64,000 bases of DNA from Pyxidicoccus parkwaysis (GTDB taxonomy: Bacteria > Myxococcota > Myxococcia > Myxococcales > Myxococcaceae). The notes under the pieces are model-generated. The model was not told the DNA's origin, ran no database searches, and saw nothing but the letters and a program-made list of their open reading frames with translations. A program made the translations under genes and the position numbers. The stretch lies in the NCBI RefSeq assembly GCF_017301735.1, contig NZ_CP071090.1, positions 7,616,001-7,680,000 on the forward strand, given 5' to 3'. Shown piece after piece: positions 2,712 through 44,463 of the stretch (within the stretch, counting starts at the first letter, position 1; each line of letters starts with the position of its first letter).

Positions 2712-3601
2712 AGACGGCGCTCCTCATGCTGCTGGCGGGACTGGGCGCCACCGCGCAGGACACGGCGGTGGTGGGCCCGCACGAGACGCTGCGACAGGTG
2801 GCGGAACGCACCGTGGGAGACCCGGGCGCCGCGGCGGAAATCCAGGCGCTCAACGGGCTCGCCACGGACACCGTGCCCGAGGGCACGCGGCTGAAGGTGC
2901 CTGGCGGGGAGCGCGCGCTGGCGCTGAAGGCGCTGGAGACGGCGCGCACCCTGGTGGGAGACGCGGGCGCGTCACCCGCCGCCGAGGCGCGGCTCAAGGA
3001 GGCGGAGGCGCACTTCCGCGCCGCCCGCTACGCGCAGGCCTCCGAGGCGGCCAACGCGGCCGGGAAGCAGGTGGCCGCCGCCCCCACGCCGCAGTCCTCC
3101 GCCTTCAGCGTGGAGGTGGGCCGTGACGGAGGCACCACCACCGTCACCGTAAAAAAGGGCCCGCCGGTGCGCGTGGAGGCCGAGGGCGTCACCCGGCCCG
3201 TGCCTCCGGGTGTGTCGATGAGCGTGGAGAGGGGCCAGCCGCCCCCCGCGCCGCCGCCGGCCCTGGTGGCGCCGCAGCCGGGATTCCCCGAGGATGGGGA
3301 GTTGCTGAAGCGACGTCCGGACCGGGCGGGCCGGCTGGGGCCGGTGAAGCTGAGCTGGGCGGGCGTGCCCGGAGCGGAGCGTTACGAGGTGGAAGTCCTG
3401 CGCGACATGGAAGGCACGCCGGTCTTCGTCCAGGCCGTGTCCGCCGTCGAGGTGAAGCTGCCCGTGCTGCCGGCGGGCCGCTACCGGTGGACGGTGCGCG
3501 CGGTGGGGGCTGCGGGCAAATCCGAGCCCGGGCCGGTCCGGCGCTTCGAGCTGGTGTCGGAGCGGTTGAAGCTCGAAGTGCAGAAGGGACAGTGGCAGTA
3601 G
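2708..3601 (+). CDS. Secreted LysM-domain protein
   Basis: The 297-residue protein has a short signal peptide (MKTALLMLLAGLGATAQ), then a LysM-like module at about residues 20-62 (VGPHETLRQVAERTVGDPGA ... LNGLATDTVPEGTRLKVPG), which normally binds peptidoglycan glycan. A helical Ala-rich segment follows (about 65-125), then a Pro-rich linker and a C-terminal fibronectin-like domain (about 215-290; RYEVEVLRDMEG, LPAGRYRWTVRAVG). It starts inside the stop of the FecR gene, and the two probably form one periplasmic unit anchored to the cell wall. The HD-GYP gene begins 23 bases after its stop, so it may share the transcript. Function beyond wall binding is unknown. Confidence 0.78.
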   Translation: MKTALLMLLAGLGATAQDTAVVGPHETLRQVAERTVGDPGAAAEIQALNGLATDTVPEGTRLKVPGGERALALKALETARTLVGDAGASPAAEARLKEAEAHFRAARYAQASEAANAAGKQVAAAPTPQSSAFSVEVGRDGGTTTVTVKKGPPVRVEAEGVTRPVPPGVSMSVERGQPPPAPPPALVAPQPGFPEDGELLKRRPDRAGRLGPVKLSWAGVPGAERYEVEVLRDMEGTPVFVQAVSAVEVKLPVLPAGRYRWTVRAVGAAGKSEPGPVRRFELVSERLKLEVQKGQWQ

Positions 3602-3624
3602 CCACTGACTGGAGGAGCCGTACC

Positions 3625-5334
3625 GTGCGCCTTTTCAAAGCCATCCTCCTGTTGATGCTGGTGGTGGGCTTCGTCCCCACGCTGATGGTGGGCTGGCTCT
3701 CCGTGTCCCATACGCGCGAGCTGCTGGTGCGCGACGCGCAGGAGCTGGCGCAGGAGCGGGTGAAGCAGCTCCAGCTCAAGGCACAGGACTTCCTGGGCGA
3801 GCCCACCGAGGTGGTGCTGGGCCTGGCCCGCGTGCCCGGCGGCTTCTTCACGCTGCCCAGGGAAGCGCAGCAGACGCACCTGGCGTCGGTGCTCACGCAG
3901 CGGCGCGAGGTGCTGGCGCTCACCGTCTTCGGCCCGGACCGCAAGCGGCTGCCGGGGTTGCAGGCCTTCTCGCGGCACGACGTGTCCCCCAGCGCGCTGG
4001 CGGCGCACGAGGAGCGGGCCCGCGCGCTGCTGGAGAAGCTGGACGGGCTGGGCTACTCGGACGCGGTGACGGGGCCGGACGGCGCCGGGCCGGTGGTGAC
4101 GCTGGCCTTCCCCGTGGGCGAGCCGGTGAAGGGCTACATCTCTGCGGACCTGTCGCTGGCGGGGCTGCGGCGGATGCTGGAGCAGGAGCGCGTGGGCAGC
4201 ACCGGCTTCGCGTACGTGGCGGACCGGCACGGGCACCTCGTCGCGGGCGGCGGAGGCGTGGCGGGCCCGGGCGAGGACGTGTCGCGGCGCCAGCCGGTGG
4301 CGCACCTGTTGATGCAGTTGGAGCGCCACCCGGACACGGAGACGTTCCACGTGGGCAACTTCGGCGAGGGCCGGGACGCGGTGGTGGCCGCGTACACGGT
4401 GCTGCCGGAGACGGGCTGGGCCATCATCTCCGAGCAGCCGGTGGAGCACGCGTACCGGCAGGTGGAGGCCATGGAGCGCCGCATCCTCCTGGGCCTGGGC
4501 GCGGCCATCCTCGTGGCGCTGGTGCTGGCGGCGCTCTTCTCGCGAAACCTCACGCGGCCCCTCAAGGGCTTCACGAAGGGCGCGCTGGAGCTGGCGCGCG
4601 GCAAGTTCGGCGTGGAGGTGGACGTGCCGCAGAAGAACGAGCTGGGGGAGCTGGCCCAGACGTTCAACTACATGAGCAAGCAGTTGCTCGCGTACGACAT
4701 GGAGAACCGCGGCCTCTACGAGAGCCTGGAGAAGGGCTACCTCGAGACCATCGTCGCGCTGGCGAACTCCATCGACTCGAAGGACGCGTACACGCGCGGC
4801 CACAGCCAGCGGGTGGGCGACGTGGCGGTGGAGGTTGGCCGCGAGCTGAACCTCACCGAGCGCGAGCTGCGGCAGCTCCAGTACGGCGGCATCCTCCACG
4901 ACATCGGGAAGATTGGCATCGTCGAGTCCATCCTCTGCAAGCAGTCGCGGCTGACGGACCAGGAGATGGCCATCATGCGCGAGCACCCGGCCATCGGCGA
5001 CGCCATCATCGGCCCGGTGAGCTTCCTCGGCGCGGTGCGCGCGTGCGTGCGCCACCACCACGAGCGCTGGGACGGCACCGGCTACCCGGACCGGCTGGCG
5101 GGCGAAGACATCCCCCTGCTGGCGCGCATCGTCGCGTGCGCGGACACGTTCGACGCGTGCACCTCCACGCGCCCGTACCAGAAGGCCATGCCGCTGGAGA
5201 AGGCGATGGAGATTCTCGACAACCTCAGCGGCGCGCAGCTGGACCCGAAGGTGGTGCTGGCGCTGCGGCGGGTGCTGGCGAAGCAGGGCGTGCGCCTGGA
5301 GGGCCACCGGCTGCCCGTCAAGCTCGCCTCGTAG
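3625..5334 (+). CDS. Membrane HD-GYP domain protein with CACHE-like sensor and HAMP (probable c-di-GMP phosphodiesterase)
   Basis: The 569-residue protein probably hydrolyses cyclic di-GMP in response to an extracytoplasmic signal. It has a transmembrane helix at about 5-25, a periplasmic dCACHE-like region (about 30-280; STGFAYVADRHGHLVAGGGG), a second membrane helix (about 285-308), a HAMP linker and a C-terminal HD-GYP domain (about 370-555). The HD-GYP residues are intact: TRGHSQRV, ILHDIGKIGI, MREHPAIGD, RHHHERWDGTGYPDRLAGED and ACADTFDA. The frame is open upstream into the LysM gene, but the GTG at 3625 is nine bases after GGAGG (3611-3615) and gives a membrane-anchored N-terminus, so it is preferred. 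Confidence 0.9.
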   Translation: MRLFKAILLLMLVVGFVPTLMVGWLSVSHTRELLVRDAQELAQERVKQLQLKAQDFLGEPTEVVLGLARVPGGFFTLPREAQQTHLASVLTQRREVLALTVFGPDRKRLPGLQAFSRHDVSPSALAAHEERARALLEKLDGLGYSDAVTGPDGAGPVVTLAFPVGEPVKGYISADLSLAGLRRMLEQERVGSTGFAYVADRHGHLVAGGGGVAGPGEDVSRRQPVAHLLMQLERHPDTETFHVGNFGEGRDAVVAAYTVLPETGWAIISEQPVEHAYRQVEAMERRILLGLGAAILVALVLAALFSRNLTRPLKGFTKGALELARGKFGVEVDVPQKNELGELAQTFNYMSKQLLAYDMENRGLYESLEKGYLETIVALANSIDSKDAYTRGHSQRVGDVAVEVGRELNLTERELRQLQYGGILHDIGKIGIVESILCKQSRLTDQEMAIMREHPAIGDAIIGPVSFLGAVRACVRHHHERWDGTGYPDRLAGEDIPLLARIVACADTFDACTSTRPYQKAMPLEKAMEILDNLSGAQLDPKVVLALRRVLAKQGVRLEGHRLPVKLAS

Positions 5335-5412
5335 GCGCGGCTTCTCGCGCCATGCCGGCGAGAAGGATGGTAGGGAGGGCGCGGCGCTGTTGAGACTTCG
5401 GAAGGTGCAACG

Positions 5413-5751
5413 TTGAGTTTCTGGGACCGCATCAAGCCCGCCCCCAAGCCCGTCTCCGGAACGGAGGTCCGCGTGTCTCCGGACGGCTCGCGGCTGGAGC
5501 TGGGCTGGGACGACGGGGCGAAGACGTCCGCCACCGCGCAGGTGCTGCGCCAGCAGTGCCCGTGCGCCGGGTGCGTGGACGAGTGGACGAACAAGCGCAC
5601 CCTGGACGCGACGAAGGTGCCCGCGGAGCTGCGCATCAAGGAAGTGCAGCCGGTGGGCAACTACGCGCTGGCCTTCGCCTTCAGCGACGGCCACACCACC
5701 GGCATCTACCCCTGGAAGCTGCTGCGCGAGGTCACCCAGCCCGTCACCTGA
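5413..5751 (+). CDS. DUF971 (gamma-butyrobetaine hydroxylase-like N-terminal domain) protein
   Basis: This 112-residue protein consists of one DUF971/GBBH-like N domain. The conserved Cys pair is visible in LRQQCPCAGCVDEWT (about residues 51-57), as is the C-terminal FSDGHTTGIYPWKLLRE motif, in which Gly-Ile-Tyr-Pro/Phe is typical. Stand-alone members are often encoded near iron-sulfur or Mrp/ApbC genes and may bind metal or a cluster, but none of those genes is adjacent here. The apparent start is TTG at 5413, where the family N-terminus begins. The kinase gene starts one base after the stop, so translational coupling is possible. The biochemical role is unknown. Confidence 0.82.
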   Translation: MSFWDRIKPAPKPVSGTEVRVSPDGSRLELGWDDGAKTSATAQVLRQQCPCAGCVDEWTNKRTLDATKVPAELRIKEVQPVGNYALAFAFSDGHTTGIYPWKLLREVTQPVT

Positions 5752-5752
5752 C

Positions 5753-7699
5753 GTGGAGGTCGTCCTGAACGAACGCTATCGGCTCGTGCGGCTCCTGGCC
5801 TCCGGCGGCATGGCGGAGCTGTACCTCGGCGTGGCGCGCACGGAGGGCTTCGAGCGCGTGGTGGCCATCAAGCGCGTGCTGCCGCACCTGGCGCAGGAGG
5901 CGGACATCGCGCGGATGTTCGTCACCGAGGCGCGGCTGGCCATGCTGCTGCAGCACCAGAACATCGCCACCGTGTACGACGTGGGCCAGGGCCCCGACGG
6001 GCTCTTCCTGGTGATGGAGCTGGTGGACGGCTGGGACCTGGGCGTGCTGCTGCGCACGGCCGCGCGGCAGGGCGTGCGCTTCCCGCCGCACCTGGCGGCG
6101 TTCATCGTCCTCCAGACGCAGGCCGGCCTCGCGCATGCGTACCGGAAGCTGCACGAGGGGCGACCGGTGATGGCGGCCCACCGCGATGTGTCTCCGTCCA
6201 ACCTCCTCGTGTCGCGCGAGGGCGAGGTGAAGGTGACGGACTTCGGCATCGCCAAGATGGAGGGCGGTTCCTTCACGGAGCCCGGCGTCTTCCGCGGCAA
6301 GGAGGCCTACAGCGCGCCCGAGGTGCTCCAGGGCTCGCCGGCCAATGCCCTCAGCGACCAGTTCTCCCTGGGCATCGTCTTCCACGAGCTGCTGGTGGGC
6401 CGGCATCCCTTCCACGACGTGAAGGAGCCCATGGCGGTGGCATACGCCATCCTGTCGCGCGAGGTGCCGCCGCTGCCACCGGACGTGCCCGCGCCGCTGG
6501 CCGAGGCCGTGCTGCGCATGTTGTCGCGAGCGCCCGAGCAGCGCTTCCCCACGCCCGAGGCCCTGAGCGAGACACTGGCGCGCTGGCTGGCCCGCTCCGG
6601 CGAGCCCGCGACGTCACAGGCGCTGGCGGACTTCACGCGGCAGCTCACCCTGCCGCCCACGCTGCGCGAGCAGGCCGAGGCGGATGTCGGCGGAGCGAAG
6701 GCGGCGGCCGTCACGCGCCCGTCGAACCCGGGGCCCTTCTCGCTTTCGCTCTCGCCCGTGATGGAGGCGGAGGAAGAGGAGGCACTGCCCGGCGGCCCCG
6801 CGCTCAGCGTCAGTGGGCGGCTGATTCACCGGTGTGCCCGCTGTGGCTCGCCGCTGTCCTCTCCGCATGCGCCGTGTGACCGGTGCGCGGAGGAGCTCTC
6901 CCCTCCTTCGCCGGCCTTCGCTCCGGTGGCTCCTGAAGCGGTGGTTGACGCCTCGGAGGAGGCTTCCACGGCCGCCGCGTATGGCTCGGTGCCGGCCCGT
7001 ACCGCGGCGTATGGCACGCCGGGGCATGCGGCGGCTCCGGGTGTCTCCGGGGCGGCGTCCGTACGCGGCGGGCCTGGACCTGAATCGGGTTCACGGCCAG
7101 GGGTTCACGCTGGCGCAGCGGCGTCCGCGCGTGGGGCCATGGCTCCCGGTGGTGCCGCACCTGGTGCTTCCACGGCGTCGGGCCGCTCGCGCCCCGGCAC
7201 GCCGCCTCCTCCGCAGTCCGCCCCCGCCGTACCATCCGCAGAGGAGTTCATCCCGCAGCGCAGCGTGCTCCAGACACCGGCCGAATCGCTGGAGCTGGCC
7301 GAGCGCGCGCCGCGCCCGGAGAGCGATTGGCAGGAGATGGAGGACCTGCCCCGCCCTCGAAGGCGCTGGGGGCGTGCCGTGGCGGTGCTTGGCGTGCTGG
7401 TCGTGCTCCTCGCGGGTGGGCTGTGGGCCATGTCCTCCGGCGCCATGACGGTGACGGGGCTCCTGGCGAAGCTGGGCGTGCCGATGCCCTCGCCCACCCT
7501 GAGCATCATCAGCAGCCCGCCGGGTGCCACCGTCCTCATCGACGGGCGGGAGGCAGGCACCACTCCCCTCGCGGTGGACAACCTCTACGCGGCGGAAAGG
7601 CCCATCACCTTGCAGCTCAAGCTCAAGGGCCACCGCACGTGGACGGGCACCTTCCGCGGCGGCGAGCCCGTCGAGTTCAAGGTCGCGCTGGAGCGCTGA
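5753..7699 (+). CDS. Transmembrane serine/threonine protein kinase with zinc-ribbon and PEGA domain
   Basis: The 648-residue protein has a Hanks-type kinase domain at about residues 8-285: ASGGMAELYLG loop, VVAIKRVL lysine, AHRDVSPSNLLV catalytic loop, TDFGIAK metal motif and FRGKEAYSAPEV activation segment. The HRDVSPxN form is common in myxobacterial kinases. It is followed by a two-CxxC ribbon (HRCARCGSPLSS ... PCDRCAEEL, about 360-382), a long Ala/Gly/Pro linker, a membrane helix (about 545-565) and a periplasmic PEGA domain (about 582-648; IISSPPGATVLIDGREAGTT). The GTG at 5753 is used; a start slightly downstream, after GGAGG at 5755-5759, is possible. The substrate is unknown. Confidence 0.92.
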   Translation: MEVVLNERYRLVRLLASGGMAELYLGVARTEGFERVVAIKRVLPHLAQEADIARMFVTEARLAMLLQHQNIATVYDVGQGPDGLFLVMELVDGWDLGVLLRTAARQGVRFPPHLAAFIVLQTQAGLAHAYRKLHEGRPVMAAHRDVSPSNLLVSREGEVKVTDFGIAKMEGGSFTEPGVFRGKEAYSAPEVLQGSPANALSDQFSLGIVFHELLVGRHPFHDVKEPMAVAYAILSREVPPLPPDVPAPLAEAVLRMLSRAPEQRFPTPEALSETLARWLARSGEPATSQALADFTRQLTLPPTLREQAEADVGGAKAAAVTRPSNPGPFSLSLSPVMEAEEEEALPGGPALSVSGRLIHRCARCGSPLSSPHAPCDRCAEELSPPSPAFAPVAPEAVVDASEEASTAAAYGSVPARTAAYGTPGHAAAPGVSGAASVRGGPGPESGSRPGVHAGAAASARGAMAPGGAAPGASTASGRSRPGTPPPPQSAPAVPSAEEFIPQRSVLQTPAESLELAERAPRPESDWQEMEDLPRPRRRWGRAVAVLGVLVVLLAGGLWAMSSGAMTVTGLLAKLGVPMPSPTLSIISSPPGATVLIDGREAGTTPLAVDNLYAAERPITLQLKLKGHRTWTGTFRGGEPVEFKVALER

Positions 7700-7709
7700 G
7701 CCCCGCGCC

Positions 7710-8240
7710 TCACTTCACGAGGCGCAGGTGGCCCCGGCGCGGCGTGGGCGGATCGTCCTTGGGCTCGTCCGTCGGCGGCGTGGGTGGCACCTCGGGCGCG
7801 TCACTGGCGCGCGTGTCTCCCGGCATGGGCACCTCGCGCAGGAAGGTGCGCGGACGCTCGGCGGCGACGGGCACCACCGGCACGGGCTGCGGCGGACGCG
7901 CCGACGCGGGCTGCTGGAGCAGCTCCGGCGGCATGTCGTCCGGGTACATCCAGAACTCCTTCGTCACGTGGCTGGCAATGGCGAACAACGCCGACCAGGG
8001 CACCGCCACCGTGAAGCGAGAGCCGGAGAAGCTCAGCGTGCAGCGCACGCCCCACTCGCCCACCGTCAAATCCGGCGGGTCGAAGCGGTAGGAGAGGTTG
8101 AGGCGCAGGTGGCCCTCTCCCCTGAGAGAGGCGGGGACGAGCACACCGGGGCGGCGCGCGTCCAGGTGGATCATCACCATCCCCTGGTCGAGCGCGGCCA
8201 ACAGCCGCTCCTTCTTGTCGAGACCCTTCTTGTCGTCCAT
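7710..8240 (-). CDS. sspB: SspB-type ClpXP adaptor
   Basis: SspB tethers ssrA-tagged proteins to ClpXP. The 176-residue protein has an N-terminal SspB-fold domain (about residues 12-115; DQGMVMIHLDARRPGVLVP, LRLNLSYRFDPPDL, CTLSFSGSRFTVAVPWSAL), a long Pro/Asp-rich linker and the C-terminal tail RRGHLRLVK. That tail closely resembles the ClpX-binding (XB) tail of Escherichia coli SspB, RPALRVVK, and is the strongest evidence. The ATG at 8238-8240 starts the family N-terminus; the frame runs further upstream only inside smpB. The gene lies 34 bases after smpB on the same strand, so tagging and tag-reading factors are co-encoded. Confidence 0.88.
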   Translation of the reverse strand: MDDKKGLDKKERLLAALDQGMVMIHLDARRPGVLVPASLRGEGHLRLNLSYRFDPPDLTVGEWGVRCTLSFSGSRFTVAVPWSALFAIASHVTKEFWMYPDDMPPELLQQPASARPPQPVPVVPVAAERPRTFLREVPMPGDTRASDAPEVPPTPPTDEPKDDPPTPRRGHLRLVK

Positions 8241-8274
8241 CCGGTGTACGGCGAGAGAAATTCGGGCGCCCCTC

Positions 8275-8763
8275 TCAACGTCGGCGCATCGCCCGGTCCA
8301 TCTCCCGCTTCGTCTCCCGCTCCTTGATGTCCTGGCGCCGGTCCTCGTGTTGCTTGCCGCGGCAGAGCCCCAGCTCCACCTTGGCTCGCCCGTTCTTGAA
8401 GTACAGCACAAGCGGGATGATGGAATAACCCCGCTCCCGCACCTTCGCCGCCCAACGGTCGATTTCCGCCCGGTGCAGCAGGAGCTTCCGGCCCCGGGTG
8501 GGCAGGTGGTCGAAGACGCTGGCGGCCTTGTACGAGCCGATGTTCGCGTTGAGCAGGAACAGCTCGCTACCCTTGGGGAGCGCGTAGGCGTCCGACAAGT
8601 TGGCGATTCCCTCCCTCAGCGACTTCACCTCGCTGCCGGTCAGCTCCAGCCCGGCCTCCAGCTTCTCGTCCACCGTGTAGTCGAAGCGCGCACGCCGGTT
8701 CTCGGTGATGACCTTCACCCCGGGCTCACCGCCGGGTCCCTTCGACTTGCCGCTGGATGTCAT
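8275..8763 (-). CDS. smpB: SsrA-binding protein SmpB
   Basis: SmpB binds tmRNA and delivers it to stalled ribosomes for trans-translation. The 162-residue protein matches the family across its length: ITENRRARFDYTVDEKLEAG, LTGSEVKSLREGIANLSDAY, NANIGSYKAASVFDHLPTR, RKLLLHRAEIDRW, GYSIIPLVLYFKNGRAKVEL and the basic tail GLCRGKQHEDRRQDIKERE, which inserts in the mRNA channel. The ATG at 8763 gives a roughly 15-residue hydrophilic extension before the core. It sits between panC (16 bases upstream) and sspB (34 bases downstream). No tmRNA gene is recognisable in the window. Confidence 0.97.
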   Translation of the reverse strand: MTSSGKSKGPGGEPGVKVITENRRARFDYTVDEKLEAGLELTGSEVKSLREGIANLSDAYALPKGSELFLLNANIGSYKAASVFDHLPTRGRKLLLHRAEIDRWAAKVRERGYSIIPLVLYFKNGRAKVELGLCRGKQHEDRRQDIKERETKREMDRAMRRR

Positions 8764-8779
8764 ACGCGTCCCGGGTCTC

Positions 8780-9637
8780 CTAACCGGCCAGCGGCATGTT
8801 GTCGATGAGGCGTGTCGTCCCGCTGAAGGCCGCGACGAGCAGGCGAGCAGACTGGCCGGGCTCCACCAAGGCCAGGGGCTTCAGCCGCTCCGCGTCCACC
8901 AATTCCACGTAGTCCTCGCGCAGGCCCGCCGCCTCCAGCTCGCGCCGCACGGCGCCCACCAGCACGCCCGCCTCCCGGGTGCCCTCCCGCAGCAGGGCCT
9001 GGGCCGCCTTCAGCCCACGCGAGAGGGAGAGCGCCCGCTTCCGCTCCTCGGGGGACAGGTAGGCATTGCGGCTGCTCATCGCCAACCCGTCCGGCTCGCG
9101 CACCGTCGGCATTCCGATGATGTCCGCGCCCAGGTGCAAATCGCGGTTCAGCGCCTTGATGACCTGGAGCTGCTGGTAGTCCTTCTCCCCGAAGAGCGCC
9201 ACCTCCGGCCGGAAGAGGCACAGCAACTGGGTGACAATGGTGGCCACGCCACGGAAGTGGCCGGGCCGCCTGTCGCCACACAGGCCCTGGCTGACGTCCG
9301 TCACCTCCACGTACGTCTGGTACCCCGGGGGGTACATGGCCTTCGGGTCCTCCGGCGCGAAGACGACATCCACGCCCGCGCTGGCGCACTTCGCCACGTC
9401 CCCCTCCAAGTCGCGGGGGTAGCGGGACAAATCCTCCCGGGGACCGAACTGGGTGGGGTTGACGAAGATGGAGGTGGCCACCACGTCGGCACGGGAGCGC
9501 CCCTCGCGCATGAGCGAGAGGTGCCCCTCGTGCAGGTAGCCCATGGTGGGCACCAGCGCGAGCCGGCGCCCCTCACGGCGCAGTCCCGCAACCCACGCCT
9601 TCACCTCCGCCACGGTTCGCAGGACTGCGGTGGCCAT
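8780..9637 (-). CDS. panC: Pantothenate synthetase
   Basis: PanC joins pantoate and beta-alanine with ATP to make pantothenate. The 285-residue protein shows VPTMGYLHEGHLSLMR (HIGH-like, about residues 29-44), TSIFVNPTQFGPREDLSRYP, PGHFRGVATIVTQLL, FGEKDYQQLQVIK and VREPDGLAMSSRNAYLSPEE (KMSKS-like region, about 180-199), all typical of the family. The open frame continues upstream into panB, but the ATG at 9635-9637 matches the family start and lies two bases after the panB stop, indicating a panBC operon. The stop is 16 bases from smpB. No panD or panE is visible nearby. Confidence 0.97.
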   Translation of the reverse strand: MATAVLRTVAEVKAWVAGLRREGRRLALVPTMGYLHEGHLSLMREGRSRADVVATSIFVNPTQFGPREDLSRYPRDLEGDVAKCASAGVDVVFAPEDPKAMYPPGYQTYVEVTDVSQGLCGDRRPGHFRGVATIVTQLLCLFRPEVALFGEKDYQQLQVIKALNRDLHLGADIIGMPTVREPDGLAMSSRNAYLSPEERKRALSLSRGLKAAQALLREGTREAGVLVGAVRRELEAAGLREDYVELVDAERLKPLALVEPGQSARLLVAAFSGTTRLIDNMPLAG

Positions 9638-9639
9638 GG

Positions 9640-10557
9640 CTAGACCGGTACCCCGTAGACGGGGCCAATCTTCTCGCCACCCTCGGCGGGGGCCGAAGAG
9701 GACGACTCCGCGCGCGGCGCCGGGCTGCCGGCGACGAGGCGGATGTTCTTGTTCGACTTGAACGAGTGGTCCTCGTCGGGGAACGCGCCCTGGCGGACCT
9801 CGGAGAAGAAGGCGCCCGCGGCCTCCGTAATCGAGCCGTGCAGGTTGGCGTAGCGCTTGACGAACTTCGGCTTGAAGTCCGGGTTCATCCCCAACAGGTC
9901 GTAACAAACGAGGACCTGGCCATCACAGTCCACGCCCGCGCCAATGCCGATGGTGGGGATGGACAGGCTCTGCGTCACCGTGCGCGCGAGCTCCAGCGGC
10001 ACGCCCTCGAGCACCAGCGCATAGGCACCGGCCTGCTCCAGCGCCAGCGCGTCATCGAGAATCTTGCGGGCCTGGTCCTCGTCACGGCCCTGGACGACAT
10101 AGCCGCCCATCTTGTGGACGGACTGCGGCGTCAGCCCCAGGTGGCCCATGACGGGGATGCTGGCGCGGGTGATGGCTCGCACCGTGTCGGCGAACTCGGC
10201 GCCGCCCTCCAGCTTGATGCTGCCCACGCCACCCTCGGACACCATGCGGCCGGCGTTGCGCACCGCCTCCTGCGGCGACACCTGGTAGCTCATGAAGGGC
10301 AAATCCCCCACCACGTGGGCCCGGCGCGCGCCGCGCGTCACGGCGGCGCAGTGGTAGACCATCTGGTCCATCGTCACCGGCAGCGTGGAGTCATGCCCCT
10401 GGACCACCATGCCCAGCGAGTCACCTACCAGCAGCACGTCCGCACCAGCCTGGTCCAGGATGTGGGCAAACGTGGCGTCGTAGGCGGTAACCATGCAGAT
10501 CTTCTGGCCGATCTGCTTGAAGCGCTTCAGCGTGTGGATGGTGACCTTGTCCTTCAC
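9640..10557 (-). CDS. panB: 3-methyl-2-oxobutanoate hydroxymethyltransferase (ketopantoate synthase)
   Basis: PanB transfers a hydroxymethyl group from methylene-tetrahydrofolate to ketoisovalerate, the first committed step to pantothenate. The 305-residue protein has the TIM-barrel signatures [89 protein letters not shown] and [17 protein letters not shown]. It carries about 35 extra, low-complexity C-terminal residues ([17 protein letters not shown]). Translation starts at GTG 10557, supported by an exceptionally strong ribosome site just upstream. panC follows after two bases. Confidence 0.97.
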
Positions 10558-16679: not shown

Positions 16680-16880
16680 TCACTTCACTGCGGACTTCAG
16701 AGAGCCTGACGCGGGAGCATCCTGCCCGCTTTCCAGGCATGTCAATGGCTTGGGGAGGCGGAGCGTCTGGCTGTCCCCCCGCTGGACAGGCATCAGCCTG
16801 AGCCGGCTTGCGGGGAGAGCCGAGAAGGCCCGCTGCTGACACCCGCTCGATGCATGAGGAGCGCGGGTGCCCTCGGGGCG

Positions 16881-19800
16881 TCAGCGGAAGAAGCCGCCTT
16901 TCTTCGGCGGGTTCTTCTTGCGCATTTCGATGAGGCGCAGCTCCTGGTTGGCCTCGAGGTGCTTGGAGTTGGCGCGCACGGCCTCGCGGAAGTGGCGCTC
17001 GGCGCGGTCCATGTCGCCCTCGACGCGGGCGATGACGCCGAGCTGGTAGTGGGCGCGGTCGCAGTTGGGGTCCGTGCGCACGGCGTCCGCCATCATCTGC
17101 TTGGCCTTGGCCATGTCCGCCTTGCGCGCCGGGTCCATGTAGATGGCCCACGCGCGGGCGGCGAGGTACAGGGGCTTGGGGTCCATCGAGTACGCGCGGT
17201 CGTAGTGGTCCGACGCGGTGGTGAAGTCCCGCTTGCGGAAGAAGACCTCGCCCATCTTGTAGAGGTCGTCCGGGCTGCTGTCGGGGCGCCCCGCGGTGCG
17301 GGCCGCGGGGCCGGATGGCGCGGCGGCGGCCTGGGCAGACGCCTTGGGCAGGGACTGAGCGGACTGGAGGTTCTGCACGTACGCCTTGCGCCGGGCGTCG
17401 TCGTAGAGGACCTCGTAGGCCTCGCGGATGGCCTCGAAGACGGCGGTGATTTTCGGCGCGAGGTGGGGAATCGTCGGGGGCAGCCGGTCCGGGTGGAAGA
17501 GTTTGGCGAGGCTGAGGAACGCCGACTTCACCTGGTCCCTCGGCGCGTCCTGCGAGACGCCGAGCACGAAGAAGTGGTCGCGCTTGGCCTGGATGTCGGC
17601 GTAGCGCTGCTCGATTTGTTGGGCGAGGCGCGCCTCGTCGGGCTTGGGCGGCTCGGTGGCGGCGGGAGGTGTGGCCTGGGCGGGCTGGGCGGCGGGGTCA
17701 GTCGTGGGAGTGGCACCCACCACGGCGGGGCGCGCGCCGAGCACGCCCATGTTCTCCATCGCACGGCGCAGCAGGCGCTGGCGCCGGAGCTTCGCTGCCT
17801 CGTCGGGATTGGAGGGGTCTGCCGCCACGTCGTCCTCGTCGAAGTCCCAGTCGTCCAGGTCTCCGGACGGCTCGGCCCATGCAGTCTGTCCAGTTGGGCC
17901 AGTGTTGTCACCGGGGAAGGTCCCCGTCACTCCAGGTGCCACCGGTTCGAAGGTCGCTTCAACAATGGCCTCCACGGGAGGCTCGTCGAATTCGACGCCC
18001 GCCGGATTGACATTCGAGCGGACGAGCGATTCCAGGTGGGAGTCCACCTGCTGGAGGGCGGCCTCGAAGGAGGCGGTGAGGTTGTCGGCGCCCTCGTCCT
18101 TGTCGAAGGCGACGATGCGCCACAGGTCCTCCTCCCCTGCCTTGGGGGCAGCGGGGCCCAGCTTGAGCGGCGGCGGCGCGGCCTTGGGCGCGGGACGGGT
18201 GGCCCAGAGGCTGTCGTCGTCCGCGCTCGAGGACGCCGGAGTGAGGACCGGTGGAGCGCTCCGAGGCGCGGCCGCGCGAGCCGGAGGCGGCGGCGCGGAG
18301 GGCGTGAGCACGGGAGGTCCGGAGACGGGAGCGGCCCGGGCCGAAGCGGGAGGGGCGGGGAGCGGAGTGGAGGCGGGGACGGCGTCTTCCCAGACCTCGG
18401 GCTCGACCTCCAGGAGGGGCAGGTCCTCGGCCTCGGTGTTGGCCGGGGCGGACTGGGAGGAGTCGCGAGCCTTCCACGGCTCCTCCTGCACGGGGACGAG
18501 GTGGTCCTTGGTGCGGGTGGGCGGCGTGGTGCGGGGAGGCTCCTCGGCGAGCCAGGGCTCGAGCGGTTGCTTCTGCGAGCGGCGCTGGGCTTCCTCCAGG
18601 TCGTGAAGGAGCGCGGCCTGGGCCAGCTGGCGCGCGATGCGGAGGGTGTCGGTGCTCTCGGGCTGGGACGGGAGGTCGAGCGAGGAAGCGGCGGAGGGAG
18701 GGACGGCGTCCGCCCAGGAGGCGGGGGCCTTCGGGGGCTCGGCGTCGGCGGGGATGATGTCGCCGACATCGAGGGCGAGGGCATCGGCTTCTTCGGAGGG
18801 AGTCGGGGTCTGCCGGGCCTGGCGGGCCTCTTCGGCGCGACGGGCTTCCTCGGCGAGGCGGGCCTCTTCGGCCTTGCGAGCCTCCTCGGCGCGCTGGGCC
18901 TCCTCCGCGAGGCGGGCCTCCTGCTGGCGGTGCTCGTCTTCGAGACGCGTTGTTTCGGCGAGCCGGGCCTGCTCCGCGAGACGCGCCTCCTTCGCACGGC
19001 GCACCGCTTCGGCACGGCGGCGCTCGACCTCGAGCCGCAGGGCCTCGGCATGGCGGACTGCTTCCTCCTTGCGAGCTTCCTCGGCGAGACGGGCCTCTTC
19101 GGCCTTGCGAGCCTCCTCGGCGAGCCGAGCCTCTTCAGCGAGGCGGGCCTCTTCAGCGAGGCGGGCCTCTTCAGCCTTGCGAGCTTCTTCAGCGATGCGG
19201 GTTTCTTCGGCGAGGCGGGCCTCTTCAGCCCGGCGGGCCTCCTCCGCAAGACGGGATTCTTCCGCCTTACGAGCCTCTTCAGCCTGACGCGCCTCTTCCG
19301 CGAGGCGGGCCTCTTCGGCGATGCGCTCCTCTTCCGCCCGACGCGCTTCTTCAGCGATGCGCGCTTCTTCAGCCAGCCGTGCCTCTTCGGCGAGACGACG
19401 CTCCTCCGCGACGCGAGCCTCTTCCGCGAGACGAGCTTCCTCGGCCCGACGCGCCTCTTCAGCCAACCGAGCCTCTTCCGCGAGACGCTCTTCCTCACGG
19501 CGACGCTCTTCGGCGAGACGGGCCTCCTCGGCCCGACGCGCCTCTTCAGCGATGCGGGCCTCCTCGGCGAGACGGGCCTCTTCCGCCAGCCGAGCCTCTT
19601 CCACGAGGCGGGCCTCTTCGGCGAGACGAGCTTCTTCAGCCCGACGCGCCTCTTCGGCGATACGGGCCTCTTCAGCGAGGCGAGCCTCCTCCGCGATACG
19701 GGCTTCTTCGGCGAGGCGGCGCTCTTCCGCTACGCGCGCTTCCTCCGCGAGGCGGGCCTCTTCTGCGCGACGTGCCTCCTCTGCGATGCGGGCCTCTTCT

Positions 19801-22580
19801 GCGCGACGTGCCTCCTCTGCGATGCGGGCCTCTTCAGCCTGGCGCGCCTCTTCGGCCAGGCGACGCTCTTCCGCGAGGCGAGCCTCTTCCGCCAGCCGAG
19901 ATTCTTCCGCGATGCGGGCCACTTCGGCGATGCGGGCCTCTTCAGCGAGACGGGCCTCTTCCGCAAGCCGAGCCTCTTCAGCGCGGCGTGCCTCCTCTGC
20001 AAGCCGGGCCTCTTCAGCGAGACGAGCCGCTTCAGCCAGCCGCCGCTCTTCCTCTTCGGCGATGCGCTCCTCTTCCGCCCGACGCGCTTCTTCAGCGATG
20101 CGGGCCTCTTCGGCCAGCCGCGCCTCTTCGGCGAGGCGCCGCTCTTCCTCGATGCGGGCCTCCTCTGCGCGACGCGCCTCTTCCGCGAGTCGGGCTTCCT
20201 CCGCCAGGCGCGCCTCTTCGGCGAGACGCTCCTCCTCGACACGGCGCGCTTCCTCTTCGGCGAGTCGCGCTTCCTCCGCCAGTCGCGCTTCTTCGGCGAG
20301 GCGCTGCTCCTCTTCTTCGAGTTTGCGGCGGATCTCTTCGACCCGGCGCGCCTCCTCCGCGAGCCTCAGTTCTTCCTGGAGTCGCGCCTCCTCGATTCGG
20401 CGCAGTTCGGCGAGGCGAGCCTCTTCAGCCAACCGCGCCTCTTCCGCAAGGCGAGCCTCTTCAGCGAGCCGAGCCTCCTCTGCGAGACGCTCCTCCTCGC
20501 GGCGACGCTCTTCGGCCAGCCGAGCCTCTTCCGCGAGCCGAGCCTCCTCCCGACGCCGTTCTTCTTCGAGGCGAGCCTCCTCCGCGAGACGGGCTTCCTC
20601 GGCAAGGCGGCGCTCCTCCTCCTGACGCGCCTCCTCTGCAAGCCTTCGCTCCTCCGCGATGCGGGCCTCTTCCGCAAGACGGCGCTCCTCCGCGAGTCGA
20701 GCCTCTTCGGCGAGCCGAGCTTCTTCCGCGAGGCGCGCCTCTTCCGCCCGGCGTGCTTCCTCAGCGAGTCGTGCCTCTTCCTCGCGACGAGCTTCTTCAG
20801 CCCGGCGTGCCTCCTCAGCGAGCCGTGCTTCCTCGGCGAGACGAGCCTCTTCAGCCAGTCGCGCCTCTTCGGCTCGACGAGCCTCCTCCGCCAGCCGAGC
20901 CTCCTCCTCAAGGCGGCGCTCTTCCTCAAGCCGAGCTTCTTCGGCCCGTCGAGCCTCCTCCGCGAGCCGCGCCTCTTCAGCGAGTCGAGCCTCTTCCGCC
21001 AGCCGTGCTTCCTCGGCTCGGCGCTCTTCTTCCTCGGCTCGGAGTCGGGCCTCTTCGGCCAGCCGAGCCTCTTCCGCGAGCCGTGCTTCCTCGGCTCGGA
21101 GTCGGGCCTCTTCGGCCAGCCGAGCCTCTTCCGCGAGCCGTGCTTCCTCGGCTCGGAGTCGGGCCTCTTCGGCCAGCCGAGCCTCTTCCGCGAGCCGAGC
21201 CTCTTCGGCCAGTCGAGCCGCTTCCGCAGCCTGACGCCGCTCCTCTTCGCGGCGAGCCTCTTCTTCGGCGCGACGCCGCTCTTCCTCTATCCGTGCCGCC
21301 TCGGCGAGTCGGGCTTCCTCCTCTGCTCGCAGCCGCTCGGCTTCGCGTCTCGCCTCCTCCGCACGGCGGGCCTCCTCCTCGGCCTTGCGACGCTCGTCTG
21401 CAAGCCGAGCCTCTTCGGCCAGTCGTGCCTCTTCAGCGAGCCGTGCTTCCTCCGCGAGCCGAGCCTCTTCGGCCAGTCGAGCTTCTTCGGCGAGGCGAAG
21501 CTCCTCCGCGATGCGAGCCTCTTCGGCAAGGCGGCGCTCCTCGGCAATGCGGGCCTCTTCAGCGAGCCGAGCCTCCTCGGCCAAACGAGCCTCTTCGGCG
21601 AGCCGAGCTTCTTCCGCGATGCGGGCCTCTTCAGCGAGCCGAGCCTCCTCGGCCAAACGAGCCTCTTCGGCGAGCCGAGCTTCTTCCGCGATGCGGGCCT
21701 CTTCAGCCCGACGCGCCTCCTCCGCAAGCCGAGCCTCCTCGGCCAAACGAGCCTCTTCAGCCCGACGCGCCTCTTCCGCCAGCCGAGCCTCCTCCGCCCG
21801 ACGAGCTTCCTCCGCAAGCCGAGCCTCCTCCGCAAGCCGAGCCTCCTCCGCCCGCCGCGCCTCCTCCGCCCGCCGCGCCTCCTCCGCGAGCCGCTCCTCC
21901 TCCGCCCGTCTCCGAGCTTCCTCCTCCGCCTCGCGCCGGGCCTTCTCCCGCGCCTCCCACTCCTCCACCGACAGCGCCTGAACGCCCCCCTCGCGCTCCA
22001 GCACGAGCAGCAGGGCCTCCTGCGCGGCCGTCAAACCGTCCGGCTGCCGGAACTCCGCCAGCGTCTCCAGGAACTCGCGCTCCGCCGCATCCGTGAGCCA
22101 CGGCGCACACCGCGCCACGTCCTCGCAGCGAAACACCCGCGCCGCCCGCGCCCCTTCACCGGGCACCTCCAGCGCCGCGCGCACCACCCGCGCACCCGCA
22201 ATCGGCCGGAAGTCCTCCTCCACCGTCCCGGGTTCGAATGCCGCGCGCTCGGCCAACTCACTCAGCCGCCGCACGTGGGCGAGCACCTGCTGCTCCACCA
22301 CCGCGTCCGGCTCCAGGCCGTACTCCTCCAGCAACTCCTCGTCCGGCGTCCCCGCCCCACCCCGCGCCCACAGCGCGTCCAGCGCCTCCGCGCCCAGCAT
22401 CCCGCTCTGCAGGAGCGCCTGCGCCGGGCTCTGGTAGCCAAACTCCAACCGCGTGCCCACGAGGTTCCCCTCGCGCAGCAGCAGTCGCGACTCACGCCCT
22501 CCCGCGGAAAGCGTCAGCCTCCCGGTGGCTCGGGTCTTGTGGGCGGAGTACAGCGCTTCGGCGGCCTGCGACGGGGTCAT
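16881..22580 (-). CDS. Giant Ala/Glu/Arg-repeat protein with C-terminal J domain and TPRs
   Basis: The 1,899-residue protein starts with a globular region (about 1-205; TRATGRLTLSAGGRESRLLL, LREGNLVGTRLEFGYQSP, resembling DUF4388), then about 1,040 residues of a six-residue repeat of the type LAEEAR, a Pro/Ala-rich acidic segment (about 1260-1640), a J domain (about 1657-1735; HFFVLGVSQDAPRDQVKSAF, with the diagnostic HPD in AKLFHPDRLP) and TPR-like repeats to the end (DLYKMGEVFFRKRDFTTASD). A J domain recruits DnaK; the repeat should form a very long helix. The ATG at 22578-22580 gives MTPSQAAEALYSAHK; the frame is open slightly further upstream without a family-supported start. No known name is assigned. 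Confidence 0.85.
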   Translation of the reverse strand: MTPSQAAEALYSAHKTRATGRLTLSAGGRESRLLLREGNLVGTRLEFGYQSPAQALLQSGMLGAEALDALWARGGAGTPDEELLEEYGLEPDAVVEQQVLAHVRRLSELAERAAFEPGTVEEDFRPIAGARVVRAALEVPGEGARAARVFRCEDVARCAPWLTDAAEREFLETLAEFRQPDGLTAAQEALLLVLEREGGVQALSVEEWEAREKARREAEEEARRRAEEERLAEEARRAEEARRAEEARLAEEARLAEEARRAEEARLAEEARRAEEARLAEEARLAEEARRAEEARIAEEARLAEEARLAEEARLAEEARIAEEARLAEEARLAEEARLAEEARIAEERRLAEEARIAEELRLAEEARLAEEARLAEEARLAEEARLAEEARLADERRKAEEEARRAEEARREAERLRAEEEARLAEAARIEEERRRAEEEARREEERRQAAEAARLAEEARLAEEARLAEEARLRAEEARLAEEARLAEEARLRAEEARLAEEARLAEEARLRAEEEERRAEEARLAEEARLAEEARLAEEARRAEEARLEEERRLEEEARLAEEARRAEEARLAEEARLAEEARLAEEARRAEEARREEEARLAEEARRAEEARLAEEARLAEEARLAEERRLAEEARIAEERRLAEEARQEEERRLAEEARLAEEARLEEERRREEARLAEEARLAEERRREEERLAEEARLAEEARLAEEARLAEEARLAELRRIEEARLQEELRLAEEARRVEEIRRKLEEEEQRLAEEARLAEEARLAEEEARRVEEERLAEEARLAEEARLAEEARRAEEARIEEERRLAEEARLAEEARIAEEARRAEEERIAEEEERRLAEAARLAEEARLAEEARRAEEARLAEEARLAEEARIAEVARIAEESRLAEEARLAEERRLAEEARQAEEARIAEEARRAEEARIAEEARRAEEARLAEEARVAEERRLAEEARIAEEARLAEEARIAEEARRAEEARLAEEARLVEEARLAEEARLAEEARIAEEARRAEEARLAEERRREEERLAEEARLAEEARRAEEARLAEEARVAEERRLAEEARLAEEARIAEEARRAEEERIAEEARLAEEARQAEEARKAEESRLAEEARRAEEARLAEETRIAEEARKAEEARLAEEARLAEEARLAEEARKAEEARLAEEARKEEAVRHAEALRLEVERRRAEAVRRAKEARLAEQARLAETTRLEDEHRQQEARLAEEAQRAEEARKAEEARLAEEARRAEEARQARQTPTPSEEADALALDVGDIIPADAEPPKAPASWADAVPPSAASSLDLPSQPESTDTLRIARQLAQAALLHDLEEAQRRSQKQPLEPWLAEEPPRTTPPTRTKDHLVPVQEEPWKARDSSQSAPANTEAEDLPLLEVEPEVWEDAVPASTPLPAPPASARAAPVSGPPVLTPSAPPPPARAAAPRSAPPVLTPASSSADDDSLWATRPAPKAAPPPLKLGPAAPKAGEEDLWRIVAFDKDEGADNLTASFEAALQQVDSHLESLVRSNVNPAGVEFDEPPVEAIVEATFEPVAPGVTGTFPGDNTGPTGQTAWAEPSGDLDDWDFDEDDVAADPSNPDEAAKLRRQRLLRRAMENMGVLGARPAVVGATPTTDPAAQPAQATPPAATEPPKPDEARLAQQIEQRYADIQAKRDHFFVLGVSQDAPRDQVKSAFLSLAKLFHPDRLPPTIPHLAPKITAVFEAIREAYEVLYDDARRKAYVQNLQSAQSLPKASAQAAAAPSGPAARTAGRPDSSPDDLYKMGEVFFRKRDFTTASDHYDRAYSMDPKPLYLAARAWAIYMDPARKADMAKAKQMMADAVRTDPNCDRAHYQLGVIARVEGDMDRAERHFREAVRANSKHLEANQELRLIEMRKKNPPKKGGFFR
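18830..21950 (-). repeat. Degenerate 18-bp coding tandem repeat with recent 36-, 57- and 72-bp duplications
   Basis: About 3.1 kb of the J-domain gene is built from 18-bp units that encode six residues such as LAEEAR, RAEEAR and IAEEAR. Within it are exact longer duplications: a 57-bp unit in three near-complete copies (21034 to about 21198), a 72-bp unit in two full copies plus part of a third (21546 to about 21708), and a 36-bp unit in two copies near 19770-19830. These show recent expansion or contraction by recombination or slippage. The repeat also keeps several other frames free of stops on both strands. Confidence 0.9.
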
Positions 22581-22614
22581 GCTCCACCGCAGTGTAGTCC
22601 CTCTACACGCCCCC

Positions 22615-23118
22615 TCAACTTGCCGGGGGTGCCTGCCTGGCCGCTCCGCTGAACGCCACCTGACGCAGCGCCTCGTACGCGCCAATCCCCACCGACGTGG
22701 ACAGGTTCAGACTCCTACGCTCCGCGAGCATGGGAATCGTCACCGGCGTCCCCGAGCCACCCTCCATCACCTCGGGCAACAGGCCTGTAACTTCCGAGCC
22801 GAACACGAGGTGGTCCCCCTCCTGGAAGCGCGCCTCGTACAGCGACGTCCCGGCCCGCGCGGAGAACAGCCACCGCCGGGCCTCCGGGTAGTCCGCGACG
22901 TACGCCGCATAGGTGGGATACAGCCGGAGGAACACCTTGTCCCAGTAGTCCAGCCCCGCCCGCTTCAGGTGCCTGTCGTCGATGGAGAACCCCAGCGGCT
23001 CCACGAGGATGAGGCGGCAGCCCGTCACCGCGCACAGGCGGGCCACGTTGCCCGTGTTGGGCGGAATCTGGGGGGACACCAGGACGAGATGCAGCGGACG
23101 CGCCAGGGGTTCGAGCAT
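22615..23118 (-). CDS. trmL: tRNA (cytidine/uridine-34-2'-O)-methyltransferase TrmL (SPOUT family)
   Basis: TrmL methylates the wobble ribose of certain leucine tRNAs. The 167-residue protein has the minimal SPOUT catalytic domain with the three knot motifs: LVSPQIPPNTGNVARLCAVT (about 13-32), VFGSEVTGLLPEV (about 105-117) and IPMLAERRSLNLSTSVGI (about 128-145). The KRAGLDYWDKV segment is also characteristic of TrmL. The ATG at 23116-23118 is used. A DUF192 gene starts 17 bases away on the other strand, so the two promoters must overlap the neighbouring coding sequence or be very compact. It is 34 bases upstream of the giant J-domain gene and may be its operon leader. Confidence 0.92.
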   Translation of the reverse strand: MLEPLARPLHLVLVSPQIPPNTGNVARLCAVTGCRLILVEPLGFSIDDRHLKRAGLDYWDKVFLRLYPTYAAYVADYPEARRWLFSARAGTSLYEARFQEGDHLVFGSEVTGLLPEVMEGGSGTPVTIPMLAERRSLNLSTSVGIGAYEALRQVAFSGAARQAPPAS

Positions 23119-43284: not shown

Positions 43285-44463
43285 CTACAGCCAGCAGACG
43301 TTGTCGAGGCAGCGCTCGCCGGCGGGGCACTCGCAGTTGGCGACGCAGGCCTTGCCGCTGCCCTGATTCACGGGCTTGCACACGCCCTCGGAGCACATGT
43401 TGTTGACGGGGCACTCGCAGTTGGCGCGGCACACCGTCGAGGTGCCCGCATCCGCCGGAGGCGGCGGCGTGGGCTGCTTGCAGTAGCCGCTGGTGCACAC
43501 CTGACCGGAGGGGCAGTCGCAGTTGGCGGCACACGCGGTGCCCGTGCCCGTGCCCGCGTCCGGCGGAGGAGGCGGCGGCGTGGGCTGCTTGCAGTAGCCG
43601 TTGGTGCACACCTGACCGGAGGGGCAGTCGCAGTTGGCCACGCACGCCTGGCCCGGGTCCGGCTGCGTCGACTTGCACTGGCCATTCGTGCACACCGCAC
43701 CGGCGGGGCAGTCGCAGTTGGCGCGGCACTCGCCTCCGGTGGGAATGGGCATGCAGTAGCCAATCTCGCAGGCGTACTCGGGCGGGCACTCGGTGGTGGA
43801 GTCACAGGACGCGCGGCAGTGGCCATCCACGCAGTCCTTCCCACTCTCGCACTGGTAGCCGGACGTGCACGCGGTCGGGTCCGGCGGGCGAGCGCGGCAC
43901 ACGCCAGCGACGCACGCATCCGTGGAGGAGCACTGCGCGTCCGTCGAGCAGCCGTGGTAGCAGGTGTTGTTGATGCAGTAGTTCCCCGTCCCGCAGTCTG
44001 CGTTCAGCCGGCACGTCGTGCTGCTGCCAGCGTCCGGACGCGTTCCTGCATCCGTCCCGCCGTCCGTGCGCGTGCCAGCGTCCGTCCCGCCGTCCGTGCG
44101 CGGCGTGCCCGCGTCCACCGTCCCGCTGTCCGGGCGCGAGGTGTTGGGGACACAGAAGTGGTCCGCGCACTTGTTGCCGGAGCCACAATCCGTGTCACGC
44201 GCGCACGGCGAATAGCAGACGTTGTTGACGCAGACCTTGCCCTTGTCGCAGTCGCGCGAGGAGTGGCAGCTCGTCGAGTCGTCCGGCACTTCGTAACAGC
44301 AGTTGTCGCGGCACGACTCGCCACTGCCACAGTCCAGGTCGCTGTAGCAGTAGTCGTCGTCGTCGAACCAGTCGTCGTTCTCGTGGATGATGCAGCCCGG
44401 AAGGGTCGATCCAAGCAAAAGCACGAGCGACAGCATCACGCTGTGCGCGGGGGTGTTCCTCAT
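43285..44463 (-). CDS. Cysteine-rich repeat lipoprotein
   Basis: The 392-residue protein has a lipoprotein signal ending in GSTLPGC (Cys at about residue 24) followed by more than 45 cysteines in repeats of about 20-35 residues such as CAANCDCPSGQVCTNGYCKQ, DCGTGNYCINNTC and CRDTDCGSGNKC-like units, separated by Asp/Ala/Gly/Thr and Pro linkers. The repeats resemble the disulfide-rich Dickkopf/EB-type modules often seen in myxobacterial surface proteins. It is likely held on the outer membrane surface and stabilised by many disulfides. The ATG at 44463 is clear. The divergent region to the sigma factor contains a conspicuous AT-rich inverted repeat. Confidence 0.8.
   Translation of the reverse strand: MRNTPAHSVMLSLVLLLGSTLPGCIIHENDDWFDDDDYCYSDLDCGSGESCRDNCCYEVPDDSTSCHSSRDCDKGKVCVNNVCYSPCARDTDCGSGNKCADHFCVPNTSRPDSGTVDAGTPRTDGGTDAGTRTDGGTDAGTRPDAGSSTTCRLNADCGTGNYCINNTCYHGCSTDAQCSSTDACVAGVCRARPPDPTACTSGYQCESGKDCVDGHCRASCDSTTECPPEYACEIGYCMPIPTGGECRANCDCPAGAVCTNGQCKSTQPDPGQACVANCDCPSGQVCTNGYCKQPTPPPPPPDAGTGTGTACAANCDCPSGQVCTSGYCKQPTPPPPADAGTSTVCRANCECPVNNMCSEGVCKPVNQGSGKACVANCECPAGERCLDNVCWL

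Follow-up and report, generated by a model that had tools for sequence, protein, structure and literature searches.

In the stretch of Pyxidicoccus parkwaysis DNA analysed here (the window; 64,000 nucleotides, contig NZ_CP071090.1, positions 7,616,001 to 7,680,000), one gene encodes a J-domain protein in which a DUF4388-like head is separated from a J/TPR end by about a thousand residues of Ala/Glu/Arg-rich hexads. Judged from the residue pattern and from structure models, a single charged alpha-helix fits this tract better than a coiled coil, a beta-helix or disorder. The protein may be a cytoplasmic tethered co-chaperone, in which the head docks, the single helix serves as spacer and the J/TPR end activates DnaK, a reading to which we assign a probability of about 0.5.

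The gene and its parts are listed in Table 1. The frame first opens with a TTG at 22685, but the likely start is the ATG at 22580, because relatives become similar from MTPSQ onwards; 16881 is the last base of the stop codon. The DUF4388-like head described in the earlier note was recovered as a similarity below the Pfam threshold (PF14332, 17.1 bits, cut-off 25); five other heads of the family scored 11.4-19.7 bits, and 52.5 was reached by a relative belonging to a different family of the order. PATAN and DUF4388 are taken here to be one domain. The J domain and the TPRs of that note were both found above their cut-offs, and the H, P and D of the HPD motif were invariant in 27 aligned rows. 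The TPR array was strongly conserved, was modelled as seven helices and was matched by consensus TPR structures. The second linker motif was also shared by helix-less relatives from outside the family, and the C-terminal KKGGFFR occurred in variant forms in many relatives and was missing from some (e.g. L114 and L119). Among named organisms, the C-terminal part was matched most closely in Myxococcus sp. RHSTA-1-4 (91%) and Pyxidicoccus caerfyrddinensis (89%). Neither a signal peptide nor a membrane segment was seen when the translation was inspected by eye, which makes a cytoplasmic location probable.

Table 1. Parts of the J-protein gene, its neighbours and two related genes of the same genome (positions in the window).
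Feature	Residues	Positions	Strand	Description
Whole J-protein gene	1-1899	16881..22580	-	1,899 aa; head, long charged helix (predicted), linker, J domain, TPR
Head	1-205	21966..22580	-	Divergent DUF4388 (PATAN)-like part, then a part that looks like a winged helix in our reading of the model
Charged tract	209-1250	18831..21956	-	1,042 aa of LAEEAR hexads, no Pro/Gly, predicted helix
Linker	1251-1667	17580..18830	-	Pro-rich and acidic; conservation mostly poor
Linker motif E-DLWRIV...SFEAALQQVDSHLESLV	1484-1520	18021..18131	-	Conserved; alignment of 22 rows, own included
Motif DPSNPDEAAKLRRQRLLRRAMENMG	1588-1612	17745..17819	-	Conserved; AlphaFold2 helix
J domain with HPD	1668-1734	17379..17579	-	PF00226, 45.9 bits, cut-off 27.8
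TPR array	1770-1889 (about)	16914..17273	-	PF00515 (TPR_1), 30.0 bits, cut-off 27.8
C-terminus KKGGFFR	1893-1899	16884..16904	-	Basic/aromatic
Downstream neighbour	940 aa	13842..16664	-	REC, DUF4388, Pro-rich, one hydrophobic segment (by eye), TPR
Upstream neighbour		22615..23118	-	SpoU/TrmL-type RNA methyltransferase, PF00588; 34 bases from the gene
L072				DUF4388-J-TPR; own genome
L073				Receiver-like-DUF4388-J-TPR; own genome

The bounds of the charged tract were set by a composition threshold, which refined the roughly 1,040 residues at 18830-21950 of the earlier note to those in Table 1. Its composition is 34% E, 28% A, 22% R and 10% L, with only 0.9% Lys. The six-residue rather than seven-residue period was borne out, with a self-identity of 0.722 at lag 6 against a composition expectation of 0.255, and of 0.249, that is, at chance, at lag 7; 19 breaks of the hexad phase were found by a phase-fitting script. 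Within the hexad, position 1 is L in 57%, R in 22% and I in 11% of cases, position 2 is A in 87%, and positions 3 to 6 are E (97%), E (93%), A (79%) and R (99%). The constant framework is thus made by the charges (E3, E4 and R6, 93-99%), and variation falls on the hydrophobic position, which R occupies in 22% of units. The Glu-Arg pairing at i+3 and i+4 claimed before was confirmed by 65 opposite-charge pairs per 100 residues compared with 32 in shuffles, and like charges at these spacings were nearly absent (3 versus 34). The tract contains 359 acidic and 240 basic residues, for a net charge near -119.

Adjacent hexads differed at pS 0.74 and pN 0.14, a ratio that is rough at saturation, and the 76 LAEEAR units were spelled in 61 DNA ways (132 DNA forms among 157 complete units). 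Synonymous sites are thus saturated and the amino acids are kept, showing that the protein sequence of the hexads is under selection and that most units are old. Recent DNA slippage as the whole story is excluded by this saturation, albeit with the rough ratio there. When an ideal hexad query was run against the organism's own 13.2 Mb genome (150 of 454 first-look candidates scored), 15 of 17 matches fell in the J-protein gene and two weak ones elsewhere. Antisense reading frames are also open across the repeat (16854-22652, + strand), comprising a mirrored frame of 1,932 aa and others including one of 1,048 aa, which are probably a by-product of GC-rich codon repetition. Elsewhere in the window, a 111-base tandem repeat of about two copies was observed at 43408-43638.

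AlphaFold2 was run on residues 1-330 with 17 relatives, covering about 121 residues of the repeat. The model had a mean pLDDT of 88.8 and showed one unbroken helix from 205 to 329, the confidence along the repeat dropping from 97 to 62 towards the cut end. This outcome deserves attention because AlphaFold2 reportedly turns perfect repeats into beta-solenoids, as stated in the accessible part of one account (PMC11795689). On these predictions there is a good chance that the tract is helical. A model of 335 C-terminal residues (27 rows, mean pLDDT 80.7, pTM 0.43) contained a predicted helix at the RRQRLLRRAMENMG motif, the J domain and the TPR array (pLDDT 97-98 over most of its length), joined by low-confidence links. 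For the head, Foldseek returned nothing at E 0.001 or better, a PDB sequence search gave no match at E <= 1, and VIA-align gave no clear relative, residues 145-207 weakly matching other chains (best Z 4.1). Head residues 45-107, the helical part of the model, aligned weakly to the N-terminal domains of the pilus/secretion ATPases PilF, MshE and PilB, with Z 3.2-3.5 in five entries and 2.2 in a sixth; the MshEN family was not listed for the head by Pfam at E <= 1.

The preference of the earlier note for a single helix over a classical coiled coil is supported by the AlphaFold2 helix, by the absence of a heptad and by a low hydrophobic amplitude at period 3.5, which was 0.037 in the tract, compared with 0.057 for designed single helices and 0.134 for tropomyosin. 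With neither a 7- nor a 3.5-residue hydrophobic period, the tract lacks the signature of a heptad coiled coil, and it has that of single alpha-helices, namely E/R-rich opposite charges at i+3/i+4 and no hydrophobic seam. The coiled-coil predictor proposed in that note was less helpful: COILS-type scoring gave a high score of 1.72 for the first 420 tract residues, which does not discriminate because designed single helices scored still higher (1.94 and 2.56), and it was the period analysis that told against a heptad.

That the tract is one chain alone is likely, and its Arg content makes this less sure than the helix itself, since Arg-rich designed single helices aggregated in the accessible text of one report (PMC5347031) and the tract is almost free of Lys, which counts against a simple monomer. 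The same finding, together with the COILS-type score, the Leu or Ile at about 68% of hexad positions 1 and an extra-family stretch (L132) that contains 20 Pro/Gly and whose hydrophobic signal at 3.5 residues is stronger (0.073), would favour a multi-chain helical rod or bundle, held by Arg-Glu contacts or a non-heptad coil and acting as a filament or scaffold with the J domains at one end. We consider this doubtful, though deserving of some weight, because lag 7 or 14 is the main period in none of 67 tracts, a strict hexad rotates Leu by 240 degrees per unit and so leaves no seam, and the net charge opposes bundling.

As a single helix, the tract would have a contour of about 156 nm, so the span of roughly 150 nm given in the earlier note holds as contour length; as reach it does not, the root-mean-square end-to-end distance being about 65 nm when calculated with a persistence length of about 15 nm. 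Such a persistence length is published for single alpha-helices, whose typical size is put at 40 to about 200 residues in the part of the source at hand (PMC5347031), and it makes the tract a semi-flexible chain and no rod. The further comparison made in that note, that the helix is longer than the envelope is thick, has no basis for a protein that is probably cytoplasmic.

The search for the gene covered 96 genomes of the family. The C-terminal query matched at E <= 1e-10 in 95 of them and strongly (E <= 1.9e-53) in 85, the weaker matches being paralogues or cut assemblies. The earlier note had named disruption of the frame in close relatives as evidence against its reading; the frame was intact in 53 of the 55 loci holding both ends on one contig, own locus included, which rules out an artefactual frame. 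Of the two others, one has a stretch of Ns together with a frame shift (G075) and one a frameshift in a short-read assembly (G030). In the remaining 30 of the 85 strongly matching genomes the frame runs off the contig end, probably because the repeat disrupts short-read assembly. Among the 11 genomes without a strong C-terminal match, the head was found in five and not in six, namely G023, G049, G053 and three small genomes of genus g23 (2.1-2.7 Mb); the latter trio is the best case for true absence, the assemblies of G023, G049 and G053 being in 670 or more contigs. One locus (L093, BNCN01000011.1) is titled Comamonas sp. KCTC 72670 and carries a Myxococcus-like gene with Myxococcus-like neighbours, so that the title looks wrong.

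The length comparison among strains suggested earlier showed that the tract is not fixed. In the intact loci it measured 53-1,318 residues (median 874), with 647-1,131 in 21 loci of the own genus and 1,141-1,318 in five loci of genus g6 (Corallococcus). In Myxococcus xanthus strain AM003 it has 825 residues. Since the length drifts nearly twofold within one genus, a fixed ruler is ruled out and the tract is better described as a long spacer. The dominant period was surveyed in 67 distinct tracts of at least 100 residues (65 in the family plus L132 and L133 outside it; 71 rows, four loci entering twice), shorter tracts and the two loci with a gap or frameshift being left out. It was a multiple of 6 in 58, a multiple of 8 in five and another in four. 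Family tracts contained 0-5 Pro/Gly each, and this was maintained through changes of repeat type. Across the family, the constant element is a long, Pro/Gly-poor chain of A, E, R and L in which opposite charges stand three to four residues apart, and not any particular repeat; this supports a single helix, which needs such spacing, whereas a heptad coiled coil does not.

The spread of lengths over the family and within the own genus, and the differing repeat types of its lineages, would also suit a tolerated, slippage-prone, low-complexity linker of selectively neutral length, in which only the ends matter. This appears unlikely to us, given that the amino acids of the hexads are retained in spite of synonymous saturation, that 8 of the 14 genera represented by intact loci have no tract of 600 residues or fewer (two of these eight with a single locus), and that the near-absence of Pro and Gly persists across repeat types. 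Outside the family, relatives in family f3 (L136 and L138) retain the head, the RRQRLL motif, the J domain and the TPRs without the helix, so that the spacer was probably inserted or expanded between pre-existing ends; in relatives from families f7 and f8 (L131-L133), whose contigs end before the head is reached, the charged stretches are built on other repeat types.

A left-handed parallel beta-helix, as in LpxA and LpxD, is suggested by the conformity of LAEEAR to the hexapeptide pattern [LIV]-[GAED]-x2-[STAV]-x and by matches to the NCBIfam LpxD (8.8e-23) and YdcK (4.3e-22) models, all far under their cut-offs, and it is very improbable, as L, I or V fills only 122 of the 174 would-be inward positions and R, K, Q, A or H the other 52 (about 30%), Gly is absent, the phase breaks 19 times, relatives have octads and other periods, and AlphaFold2 gives helix. 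The tract (18831-21956) is an annotation trap in this respect, since LAEEAR mimics the hexapeptide motif of beta-helices. The NCBIfam LpxD/LpxA/YdcK matches and a Pfam Plasmodium_HRP match (93.3 bits, cut-off 45.8) were rejected as compositional and not homologous.

The gene neighbours are conserved as well. The downstream neighbour, with Pfam matches to PF00072, PF14332 and TPR families, is the next gene downstream, in the same orientation, at every one of 78 family loci but L099 (77 of 78), and a SpoU-family methyltransferase is upstream in relatives too. The recurrent order is AmgK-like phosphotransferase, nucleotidyltransferase, PP2C (opposite strand), methyltransferase, J-protein gene and REC-DUF4388 gene, seen across the family and partly outside it. 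Strong matches were found in 85 of 96 genomes for the J-protein C-terminus, in 85 for the REC-DUF4388 neighbour and in 84 for both, the common loss being weak evidence because adjacent genes are lost together in assembly gaps. Over the 77 loci, the N-terminal part of the neighbour (138-335 residues aligned) was 75-99% identical (median 95%), and the J-protein head was much less conserved, at 34-93%. No dnaK gene was found beside the J-protein gene; three other J genes of the genome lie within 2 kb of one.

The genome (a single contig) gave 17 J-domain matches, 14 of them above the cut-off, and 18 Hsp70 matches, 12 of them strong; for M. xanthus, 16 J-domain proteins are reported in the accessible part of the source (PMC10313047). 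DUF4388 was found in three other J proteins of the genome (L071, L072 and L073), making DUF4388 plus J a recurring module. The first of these, at 3557-10183 (- strand) of its own locus L071, is a giant of 2,208 aa that begins with a receiver-like part and continues with a long charged stretch, whose charge pattern has a period of 7.0, and then DUF4388 and J. By its sequence it is a possible second long-helix co-chaperone with another repeat type. L072 and L073 resemble the J protein in the order DUF4388, J and TPR and in the HPD; they differ in that no long charged helix was seen by eye in their translations.

Single alpha-helix (SAH, ER/K) domains are also found in myosin-10 and caldesmon, and the very long E/R-rich stretch of trichohyalin has been proposed to be one extended helix, like the tract, although trichohyalin is a eukaryotic hair-follicle protein without J domain or DUF4388. 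In bacteria, domain II of TolA is a long Ala/charged helix between two ends, as in the tract. TolA domain II differs in being periplasmic and 110-335 residues long, according to the portion of the source consulted (PMC12204202). The SAH domains of proteins such as myosin-6, as described in the accessible text (PMC5347031), are alike in E/R(K) richness, opposite charges at i+3/i+4 and the lack of a seam, and unlike the tract in size, the latter being hexad-based and almost Lys-free.

J proteins with a located job are represented by TopJ of Mycoplasma, whose match to the studied protein is confined to the J domain, and by the DnaK1/DnaJ3 pair of Nostoc punctiforme, in which DnaJ3 is bipolar and DnaK1 is found at the leading poles and interacts with PilB (PMC9239167, in part). 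In the accessible text on these proteins a long charged helix, as in the J protein, is not mentioned. Given that this DnaK/DnaJ pair acts at pilus motors in cyanobacteria (same partial source) and that the proteins co-occurring with SgmX in M. xanthus include PATAN proteins in the text at hand (PMC11580455), a pilus or motility link of the J protein may be noted, only as a lead. A literature search with thin coverage of subscription journals found no study of the J protein among the listed papers inspected, and a word search of PMC5812594 gave nothing on bacterial or longest helices. Within the reach of these searches, the architecture and the spacer length look new, the component parts being of known kinds.

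The suggestion of the earlier note that DnaK or a client is positioned at a distance stays a hypothesis. In the tethered co-chaperone that we favour, the DUF4388-like head would dock on a partner, for which the REC-DUF4388 membrane-protein product of the adjacent gene is the first candidate, as adjacency and the shared domain type suggest. The salt-bridged single alpha-helix of about 1,000 residues would act as a semi-flexible spacer, and at its far end the linker motifs, the J domain and the TPRs would capture clients and switch on DnaK there, the last step being suggested by the HPD. Points against this reading are the sub-threshold DUF4388 score of the head, the falling AlphaFold2 confidence along the repeat and the lack of an adjacent dnaK. 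More speculatively, and with little probability as a whole, the two genes might form a signalling-chaperone device, in which the phosphorylated membrane regulator (REC-DUF4388-TM-TPR) captures the head, the helix sweeps the J domain through a volume tens of nanometres wide and the action of DnaK is thereby directed to a chosen site within the cell.

To our knowledge, a spacer of about 1,000 residues is the longest of its kind proposed in a bacterium. If it is one helix, it would be about five times the upper end of the typical natural single-helix range, as far as the source goes (PMC5347031), built from a simple hexad and retained across most of one bacterial family. With the same ends on either side, tract lengths from 53 to 1,318 residues provide a natural series for tests of what spacer length does. 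If the tethered co-chaperone reading is true, distance and place, and not general folding, would define the task of this bacterial J protein.
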